NCBI GenBank assembly: GCA_019745275.1 | Contig: JAIETJ010000037.1 | Span: 30,618 to 94,617 of the forward strand | From: Pseudomonadaceae bacterium | GTDB lineage: Bacteria > Pseudomonadota > Gammaproteobacteria > Pseudomonadales > Pseudomonadaceae | DNA length: 64,000 nt | Direction of reading: 5' to 3' | In this document: positions 41,095 through 43,835 of the stretch, piece after piece | Position numbering within the stretch: the stretch's first letter is position 1 | How the letters are laid out: every line of letters begins with the position of its first letter | The notes under the pieces: generated by a model | Seen by the model: only the letters and a program-made list of their open reading frames with translations | The model's database searches: none | What the model was told of the DNA's origin: nothing | Made by a program: the position numbers and the translations under genes

Positions 41095-42708
41095 TTATCT
41101 CAACTCTTTAAAGGCTTCGGCGCTTTTTTGGATTTCATTTAGCCAGACGTCTTCAGTAATCACTTGCGGACGCATCAGAATCACCAGTTCGCTCTTACCA
41201 AGGTTCTTGCGTTGCTGCTGAAACAACCAGCCCACCAATGGCAGCGATGACAACCAAGGAACGTTGGCATCGACGTTCTCGTTGTCGCTTTGCAGCAAGC
41301 CACCAATAACGATCACCTGGCCATTGCGCGCACGCACGATAGAGTCCGACTGACGCGAGGTAGTGCGTGCCGTTGGCAAGTTTAGAGTGCCAAACTTATC
41401 GCCCAAGTTGATCTCAGTGTCATCCTGAGTAACCTTACTTACCGAAGGACGAACATGCAGCGTTACATTGCTCTGCGAATCGATTTGCGGGGTCACGTCC
41501 AGCGATATGCCGGAGAAGAACGGGGTTAAGGTGATATCCGGAGTTGACGAACCATCGCCGTTGGAGCTGGTTGTAGTGCTGGATGACACATCGGTAACAA
41601 AGTATTCATCAGTGCCAACTTTAATTACCGCTTTCTGGTTATTCAGCGTTGAAATACGTGGGGTCGACAGTACCCGCACTTCGCCTTGGGTCTCAAGCAG
41701 TTGGAGCACAGCGGTAAAGTCACCGGCGGTAACTGTCGCGCTGAATACCCCGCCAATCGTTTGCACCCCGGACAGCGCTGCACCCACAAGGCTCGCGCCG
41801 CCATCACTGCCGTTCTGCGACCAATTCACCCCTGCCTGAAAGCGATCAAACAAATTCACTTCAAGAATTTTGGTTTCCAAAATCACCTGACGCTGCAGGT
41901 TGCTATGCGCCAACTTTAGAAAGCCCTCGACACTTTGCTGATCGGTCGCCGAAGCGTGCACTACCAACAAGCCAGCCTGGGGATTGACCACCACATTGTT
42001 ACCTTGCTCAGTGCCAACGATCATGCTGACCACACCGCTGAGTTCTTTCCAGAAATCAACATTGCTGGTGGTAATTAACTGGGTAGACGGCCGCGTAGTG
42101 GAGCTCGTAGTGTTGGTGGTGGAGCTACCACTGCTGTCGCTGTTATCACTGGTAGTGACTTGCCCGGAGCTGACCTCGGTATCGGTAATGCCTTGGCGTT
42201 GCAGGTTCAGATAATTAACGTCGTAGGTACGGGTAACCGCCTGATTAGGCATGATCTGATAGCCGTAACTGGTGCGGCTAAAGTCATAGCCATAACTGTC
42301 GCGCACCGCTGCCAACACCTCCTCAAGGGTCACGTTGCGCAAGCTAAAGGTGATATTGCCGGTCACCTCAGGATGCACCACGATGTTCTTGCCCGCGCCA
42401 TCCATCAGGCTCAGGAAGAACTCGTTGGCCGGCATGTCTTTGGCCGCCACATCAAAGCGCGGCCCGCTGCGCGCCAGCTGCGTTGGCGCCAGCGGGGCAA
42501 TCAGCGCCGCCTGCACCGAAGGCGGCGGGACAGCCTTGGCGCGGCTTTGCGCCAAGGTTTCGGCGAGGATCCGATTGCTTTGGTCGTACAGTTGCTTGTC
42601 GCCATCGACAAAGGTTTGGCAAGCCGACAACAGACAAAGCGCCGGCAACAACGACAGGCGAGCGTGCTTGAGCGGTACACCGAGAATAATTAATTGTTTT
42701 GGCAACAT
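41095..42708 (-). CDS. mshL: MSHA outer-membrane secretin MshL
   Basis: Lipobox LLSACQ; secretin C-terminus (GEVRVLSTPRISTLNNQKAVIKVGTDEYFVTDV...VIVIGGLLQSDNENVDANVPWLSSLPLVGWLFQQ). Confidence 0.95.
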   Translation of the reverse strand: MLPKQLIILGVPLKHARLSLLPALCLLSACQTFVDGDKQLYDQSNRILAETLAQSRAKAVPPPSVQAALIAPLAPTQLARSGPRFDVAAKDMPANEFFLSLMDGAGKNIVVHPEVTGNITFSLRNVTLEEVLAAVRDSYGYDFSRTSYGYQIMPNQAVTRTYDVNYLNLQRQGITDTEVSSGQVTTSDNSDSSGSSTTNTTSSTTRPSTQLITTSNVDFWKELSGVVSMIVGTEQGNNVVVNPQAGLLVVHASATDQQSVEGFLKLAHSNLQRQVILETKILEVNLFDRFQAGVNWSQNGSDGGASLVGAALSGVQTIGGVFSATVTAGDFTAVLQLLETQGEVRVLSTPRISTLNNQKAVIKVGTDEYFVTDVSSSTTTSSNGDGSSTPDITLTPFFSGISLDVTPQIDSQSNVTLHVRPSVSKVTQDDTEINLGDKFGTLNLPTARTTSRQSDSIVRARNGQVIVIGGLLQSDNENVDANVPWLSSLPLVGWLFQQQRKNLGKSELVILMRPQVITEDVWLNEIQKSAEAFKELR

Positions 42709-42712
42709 GGCG

Positions 42713-43105
42713 TTATCGACTCGGTTTCATGATGGGTTCGACCAAGCGCAACACCTGCTGCTGGCCTTGGCGCTCAAGCACCACTGAATGGGTATAGATC
42801 GCGCGTAACTGGGCGCCGGCAACGTCATCGCCTACCCGCCGCAACTGGCCGTTGATCACCGCTTGCGATTGCCCCGCGCCACGCACTATCGACTGCAAGC
42901 GTAACGTCGCTGGCGCGCCTTCATTGGCGCTAGCGGTGAGCGCCGAAGCTGGCGGCTGGGTTGGGTCTAGGGCTGCGTGCGCGACCGAACAAAGCCCAAG
43001 CAGTATCAATAAACCGACTGGCTTAACAGGTTGTTGAAAAATGTAGCGAGCGACGGCTAGGCAAGGCGAAATCAGCCGAAAAAGCGCAGTGTACAAGTTG
43101 TACAT
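42713..43105 (-). CDS. mshK: MSHA biogenesis protein MshK with repeat-derived N-terminus (start uncertain)
   Basis: KPVGLLILLGLCSVAHAALDPTQPPASAL signal region and ...LRLQSIVRGAGQSQAVINGQLRRVGDDVAGAQLRAIYTHSVVL; the only ATGs (43105, 43111, 43159) lie inside the 43025-43168 repeat. Confidence 0.78.
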   Translation of the reverse strand: MYNLYTALFRLISPCLAVARYIFQQPVKPVGLLILLGLCSVAHAALDPTQPPASALTASANEGAPATLRLQSIVRGAGQSQAVINGQLRRVGDDVAGAQLRAIYTHSVVLERQGQQQVLRLVEPIMKPSR

Positions 43106-43168
43106 GAGCATTTTGAGGCTGATTTCAACGCCGCATAGCCTAGCGTAGTAATTTTTCATCCACCTGTT
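43025..43168. repeat. 144-bp MITE-like imperfect inverted repeat at the mshJ/mshK junction
   Basis: Left end AACAGGTTGTTGAAAAATGTAGCG...GGCTAGGCAAGGCGAAATCAGCC; reverse complement of right end AACAGGTGGATGAAAAATTACTACGCTAGGCTATGCGGCGTTGAAATCAGCC; centre TGTACAAGTTGTACA. Confidence 0.88.
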
Positions 43169-43835
43169 AAACACCAATCCACCCCGCTTCGCGGCTCAAG
43201 GTATAGAGCACCAGGTTAATTTTTGCCTGCCCTGGGCCGCCTTCGCCCACTTGGTAATCCAAGCTGTCCCAGTGCAGCTTCCAACCGCTGGCTTGAATCG
43301 CCTGCAAATACAGCAACAAATCAAAATAGCCACCCTGCAGGCTAATTTTTAAGCCATGCCGGTACAGGGTTACCGGCACTTTAGCGGCTACGTCCGCGGT
43401 CTTCACCGGCTCATCGGCAGCCAATTGCAGGGGCTCAGAAAAACTCTGCAAGGCCAGCAGACGGAGCTTTGGTTGGGCGCGCAGCAACTCTTGCAACACC
43501 GCGCGCATTTTTGCCGGTGGCAACAGGCCCGCGGTGTCGTGATCAATTTCTCCGATCAACTGCTCGCCACTGGCCTGCGCAGTAAGCAAGGCGCTGCGAT
43601 ACGGCGCATTAGGGTCGGCGGCGAGCTTAGCTTGCAAGTCGGCCAAGCCCACTTGCGCCGCTTGCTGACTGAGCACTGCGGTTTTAGTCAGCGCCTCTTG
43701 CTTGGCCACCCGCAGGGTTAGCGGGTCGCCAAGCAGCAGCATGTACAGCATGCCCACCACAGCCAAGGCCACGGCGTAACTCAGCCACTGTTCACGCGGT
43801 TCGAGCAGTAGCCAGCGCTGGAATAATTTATTCAC
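43167..43835 (-). CDS. mshJ: MSHA biogenesis protein MshJ (PilO-like)
   Basis: N-terminal TM, coiled region, position in operon; GTG start. Confidence 0.83.
   Translation of the reverse strand: MNKLFQRWLLLEPREQWLSYAVALAVVGMLYMLLLGDPLTLRVAKQEALTKTAVLSQQAAQVGLADLQAKLAADPNAPYRSALLTAQASGEQLIGEIDHDTAGLLPPAKMRAVLQELLRAQPKLRLLALQSFSEPLQLAADEPVKTADVAAKVPVTLYRHGLKISLQGGYFDLLLYLQAIQASGWKLHWDSLDYQVGEGGPGQAKINLVLYTLSREAGWIGV

Follow-up and report, generated by a model that had tools for sequence, protein, structure and literature searches.

The junction of mshJ and mshK in the Pseudomonadaceae genome GCA_019745275.1 is occupied by a long palindrome, which raises the question of what the palindrome is, how it came to lie there and what it has done to the start of mshK. 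The window analysed here is a 64,000-nucleotide stretch of contig JAIETJ010000037.1. A previous sequence-only reading of it had described a 144-bp MITE-like element at 43025-43168 that appeared to have replaced the native mshK start and now to encode an N-terminal extension. The features resulting from our analysis are listed in Table 1.

Table 1. Features of the mshJ-mshK junction (positions are those of the window).
Feature	Position	Strand	Basis
Type A MITE, complete, 140 bp	43027..43166	+	Own-genome copies, empty site in G341, analysis of target site duplication (TSD)
TSD TTAA, mshK side	43023..43026	.	Sequence; single TTTAA(G) in the L195 empty site
TSD TTAA, mshJ side, includes mshJ stop codon	43167..43170	.	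Sequence
Left terminal inverted repeat (TIR), type A, CAGGTTGTTGAAAAA	43027..43041	+	Matches the CAGGCCGTTGAAAAA ends of the 1331-bp IS5-family IS, loci L161-L166
Right TIR, type A, CAGGTGGATGAAAAA on the minus strand	43152..43166	-	Further diverged than the left TIR
Core hairpin, conserved, common to MITEs with different ends	43043..43150	+	R1 covariance model; covariation over 52 copies
mshK reading frame from native GTG, 48-codon in-frame insertion after codon 2	42713..43174	-	Native start kept in 28 empty orthologs
Native mshK GTG start codon, overlaps mshJ stop	43172..43174	-	Ortholog comparison
Ribosome binding site (RBS)-like GGGGTGG upstream of GTG, kept	43179..43185	-	Same motif and spacing in the window and L194-L199
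mshJ, intact, TAA within the target duplication	43167..43835	-	Reading frame

Results

The palindrome is a mobile IS5-type MITE

The segment 43023-43170 consists of TTAA, 140 bp and a second TTAA, the 4-bp duplication being perfect. The net length of 144 bp given by the sequence-only reading is therefore correct, but its span is shifted relative to the true unit; the element does begin at the mshJ stop and end where the signal-peptide part of MshK starts. The imperfect palindrome is where that reading placed it, and the 140 bp fold as one long hairpin (-62.4 kcal/mol, z = -7.95, none of 200 shuffles equally stable), as does the opposite strand (-56.6 kcal/mol, z = -7.43, 0/200 shuffles). The core matches covariance model R1 with 125.1 bits (E 2.8e-38). 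The genome itself contains 52 matches by BLAST and 56 core matches by the covariance model. Since it is multicopy and its hairpin withstands shuffling, the element is a dispersed repeat and not a chance palindrome. A weak core-model match within the mshL coding sequence (41626-41707, minus strand; 16.2 bits, E 0.0097) is probably due to chance.

The window element is a real, mobile, IS5-type MITE. Like other MITEs it is multicopy, non-coding and under about 300 bp; it has TIRs that match those of an autonomous IS (the left TIR is identical to that of L161-L166 at 13 of 15 positions), a TTAA/TTAA duplication of the YTAR type and an empty site in L195 and others. Copy number and empty sites, the checks proposed with the sequence-only reading, thus speak for its MITE-like element, the exact empty site being found in G341. 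An extended MshK N-terminus occurs in no element-free ortholog, and the junction is no single-copy conserved sequence, as the element is multicopy and 28 orthologs are without the insert.

A presumed transposase source

Identical 4-bp flanks were found in 38 of 97 type A copies, and 36 of these are YTAR (CTAG 16, TTAA 13, CTAA 4, TTAG 3); YTAR stands on both sides in 55 of the 97. Duplication of YTAR is a property of an IS5 subgroup. The matching autonomous IS, located via PF01609, is 1331 bp long and present in at least six copies in genome G012 (L161-L166), with the same CAGGCCGTTGAAAAA ends and with CTAG or CTAA duplications. Its transposase belongs to the IS5 family (NF033581, 263.9 bits against a cut-off of 140). 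Only the ends are common to this IS and the MITE, and no internal IS sequence is retained: core model R1 finds nothing in L161-L163. Origin of the MITE by internal deletion of the type A IS was accordingly rejected, the interior being unrelated.

A search of four genomes for long-range pairs of type A TIRs returned only MITE-sized pairs. The type A transposase was found neither in the own genome nor in nine others, including the copy-rich G410-G412, and the eleventh genome searched (G124) gave only a match of 26% identity; donor transposase and recipient MITE were not seen together in the genomes searched, some of which are incomplete. Absence of the matching transposase from MITE-rich genomes is common for MITEs. 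The shared ends and duplications suggest that the type A MITE is presumably moved in trans by an IS5-family transposase.

mshK keeps its native start

In the relative G341 (L053/L195), whose mshJ is 82-85% identical to that of the window, the junction reads GGTGTTTAAGCC, with a single TTAA and without the element. All 28 distinct element-free mshK orthologs examined begin at a GTG that overlaps the stop codon of mshJ (GGTGTNTAR or GGTGTCTGA). The sequence-only reading had counted only ATGs, which led it to a wrong picture of the mshK start; the ortholog alignment that it called for points to this ancestral GTG, upstream of the element, and not to an ATG within it. Comparison with these orthologs indicates that the native start, with its RBS-like motif, is kept and not replaced.

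The 140-bp element and its 4-bp duplication add 144 bp, or 48 codons, free of stops in the mshK frame. The predicted product is M-F-NRWMKNYYARLCGVEISLKMLMYNLYTALFRLISPCLAVARYIFQQPV (48 residues)-K-P-V-G-L-L-I-L-L-G-L-C-S-V-A-H-A, a leader 48 residues longer with the signal-peptide core unchanged behind it. At the sequence level an N-terminal extension is thus encoded, as had been claimed, but its predicted start is the GTG and not an internal ATG. Since the hairpin begins at about codon 2-3 of mshK and the computed cost of opening the region from -15 to +15 around the native start is 22.5 kcal/mol in the window against about 14.5 kcal/mol in the empty L195 and L196, mshK is likely to be initiated less efficiently, unless translational coupling with mshJ makes up for this.

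One core between many ends

The same core occurs between further kinds of end, namely type B (CAGACTGTGTGAAAAC), type D (AGAACCTGTTCACGATCT), GGCACCTCTAAAAA, GGCTCTGTCTGAAAA and more. A 1607-bp IS of the IS1182 family (NF033551, 418.5 bits against a cut-off of 270) has the type B ends, and many insertions of both this IS and the type B MITE lie in the loop of intrinsic terminators. A 3-5-bp duplication accompanies 21 of 37 type B insertions, and often the duplicated bases are the terminator loop. Pairing between the two flanks is stronger than in shuffles for type B MITEs (-14.9 vs -10.5 kcal/mol), but hardly so for type A MITEs (-12.3 vs -11.8 kcal/mol). For type D, a 3-bp TNA duplication tried by script gave no identical flanks; by eye, one base further inward, some agree.

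Each of the two inner-arm types is combined with the A end in some copies and with a different end in others (L009, L118, L010, L095), and the GCGAGCGAAGG inner arm was found with A, B and other ends. These several combinations point to module exchange. The IS5-type and IS1182-type transposases both carry DUF772 and DDE_Tnp_1 and are, for this reason, distant relatives and not unrelated.

Some individual loci deserve mention. Insertions into terminator apical loops were seen for the IS1182-family IS and for MITEs sharing its ends in G012 (L155, L157-L160, L167-L169) and in the own genome (L004, L005, L007, L016), where the 4-5-nt loop is often the target duplication. GC-rich extra modules of about 57 bp sit at fixed core-arm positions on the left and/or right, giving variants of 200-300 bp (L022, L025, L030, L039, L043, L188, L189). 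The edge of a type B element overlaps a sub-threshold match to the yybP-ykoY manganese riboswitch (L020:508-617, minus strand; 34.2 bits, E 1.7e-6), and the element may have interrupted a riboswitch there.

Conservation and spread of the core

Across 52 copies, 88.4% of cells in the core pairing are paired (72.9% in shuffles), and both sides have changed in 40 of 48 pairs. Double-changed cells number 414 against 140 in shuffles, a total that none of 500 shuffles reached, and covariation scores 0.455 compared with 0.183; in slid controls pairing falls to 36-44%. Internal loops are recognisable by unpaired residues that are conserved, for instance near GGCAAGGC/AACGCCG and G(C/G)AG/TGA.

R1 matches occur in 120 of 274 evenly sampled Gammaproteobacteria genomes (about 44%), covering 101 of 222 genera, and in 94 of 299 genomes of a phylum-wide draw that included other classes; the E-values are rough, but many matches exceed 70 bits. 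Two distant matches, without annotation, came from a plasmid collection. Orthologous copies (L015/L143, L024/L105, L021/L131) retain 89-96% identity, whereas the genes beside them have diverged by about 18-35% at third codon positions, and this slower change implies constraint or conversion in place. In the fadB-fadA gap, the own genome and G251 both carry a core element (L024:592-735, L105:1484-1627), with a compensated base-pair change between them.

Discussion

We consider it very likely that a type A MITE was inserted into YTAR by an IS5-type transposase, that mshK stayed open from its native GTG and that the core has been recombined between ends. The MITE, mobilised in trans by an IS5-family transposase, would have entered the target TTAA, a YTAR site built into the overlap of mshJ stop and mshK start, GTGTYTAR. 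The element with its duplication adds exactly 48 codons and, being stop-free in this orientation and frame, leaves mshK open from the GTG, placing a 48-residue insert between MshK residue 2 and the signal peptide. The extended MshK would be made and secreted, with the hairpin lowering initiation. At the level of the family, a single conserved core hairpin would have been recombined between the ends of DDE transposons (IS5-type, IS1182-type and others), and since one core is found between such different ends, it is probable that the element exploits more than one transposase for its spread.

The proposal of the sequence-only reading that an internal ATG now starts MshK has some appeal: three in-frame ATGs (43159, 43111 and 43105) do lie in the element, the first of them is preceded by AGGTGG, and opening the native start is computed to cost more with the hairpin present. 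However, the window retains an intact, in-frame GTG with its GGGGTGG, both of which are conserved throughout the relatives, two other carriers have CTG at the position of ATG 43159, and translational coupling would be expected where GTG overlaps the mshJ stop. We regard replacement of the native start as unlikely and retain the GTG start.

The two other carriers, L194 and L197, are MAG species with an in-frame insert at the same mshK site and in the same orientation; their sisters L195 and L196 are empty, and the window branches outside all four. One old insertion common to the window lineage and L194/L197, with later precise loss in L195/L196, would account for the shared site and orientation. 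Precise loss is feasible for a hairpin flanked by 4-bp repeats, a tree in which the three copies form one clade is compatible with the data (AU p = 0.32), and the orthologous copies elsewhere also change slowly. Against this, the element tree does not group the window copy with those of L194/L197, and it is closer to other copies (94% identity) than to these (88.5%). Its target duplication is perfect, that of L194/L197 decayed. In the msh trees the empty L195/L196 share one clade with carriers L194/L197, with recombination among them. Repeated insertion is plausible because the YTAR target, present in nearly all mshK orthologs, is part of the conserved start/stop overlap. Two independent insertions are slightly favoured, and we give the single old insertion somewhat less than an even chance. 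Trees built from the upstream and the downstream half of the L194-L197 msh locus disagree, which suggests recombination in this species group.

The presence of an in-frame, stop-free insert of identical length at one site in three species (window, L194, L197) could also mean that the peptide has been domesticated and the extension selected as part of MshK. The insert (window vs L194) has pN 0.095 and pS 0.117, a ratio of about 0.8, against pN 0.19 and pS 0.63 between species in the rest of mshK, a ratio of about 0.3; these values indicate purifying selection between species on mshK outside the insert and give no evidence for selection on the added peptide. Other type A copies (L009, L135, L138) are likewise open in this frame, so openness is a property of the family, and the close relatives L195 and L196 do without the insert. 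Domestication is thus improbable. That the element is kept as a functional RNA hairpin, acting in the msh mRNA as an attenuator or a site of processing, appears likewise improbable: the hairpin is very stable on both strands, covariation in the family is strong and orthologous copies change slowly, but 28 orthologous operons lack the element, and covariation would also be expected if transposition or copy-to-copy gene conversion favoured paired arms. Insertion of an IS5-type MITE in frame behind the native GTG remains our preferred account.

Bacterial MITEs such as Correia/NEMIS, ERIC, RUP and QMITE (reviewed in PMC10969869) share with the present element short length, multiple non-coding copies, TIRs, short target duplications, a hairpin RNA and an autonomous IS with the same ends. 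It differs from them in an interior that does not derive from the matching IS and in one conserved core between several ends. With the YTAR-duplicating IS5 elements (NF033581) it shares the TIR type and duplications seen in the 1331-bp G012 IS, yet it retains only the ends, without transposase or internal IS sequence. Type B relatives share TIR and terminator-loop target with the 1607-bp IS of the IS1182 family (NF033551); the window element, by contrast, is bounded by type A TIRs and sits in a YTAR site. Derivation from an IS1182-family element was rejected, as TIR CAGACTGTGTGAAAAC and the terminator-loop target are missing. Rickettsia palindromic elements (PMC10969869, PMC3733652) are likewise palindromes of about 150 bp in frame in a protein gene with one open frame, but the window element has IS5-type TIRs and TSDs; it works like them by its in-frame insertion, but shows no sign of a conserved encoded peptide (pN/pS about 0.8), and it is not counted here as one of that type.

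REP units measure 20-40 bp and are tagged at one end by an unpaired GTAG or CGTC (PMC3733652). A REP/REPIN assignment was rejected, the element being a single 140-bp hairpin with a 4-bp duplication and GTAG in direct rather than inverted positions. The mosaic TIMEs, miniature elements derived from Tn3 (PMC4133298), are also non-autonomous, modular and found in Pseudomonas, but have Tn3-type 38-bp ends, 5-6-bp duplications and 262 bp. Membership of an Rfam family was discarded too: Rfam 15 gives only the Xanthomonas sRNA sX9 (RF02228) at 43032-43105 (minus strand), with 25.5 bits below the gathering score of 44. The 76-nt sX9 aligns to one half of the 140-bp hairpin, including GCUCGCUACGUU, and is possibly transcribed from an element of this kind.

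The mshK insertion is an IS5-type MITE in-frame event of a known kind, and it comes with a corrected gene model, a GTG start followed by an in-frame insert. It offers a clear example from nature of a transposon lengthening the gene of a secreted pilus-assembly protein by 48 codons. The family-level finding of one core, many ends and very wide spread is of higher interest; it is apparently unnamed, as the open-access literature covered gave no name or description of core or TIR, exact 12-15-mers included, and the core hairpin apparently has no Rfam family. A more tentative reading, which we think possible but would not favour, is that the core of about 108 bp is itself the selfish or functional unit, captured between several IS5/IS1182-type and other transposon ends. 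If so, it would be a structured RNA or ssDNA hairpin with conserved internal loops and one of the most frequent small mobile structures in Gammaproteobacteria, its host-related function being as yet undescribed. Annotation of the core would explain many orphan intergenic repeats and terminator-embedded inserts, and perhaps some predicted sRNAs. It would also make it testable how MITEs swap transposases.
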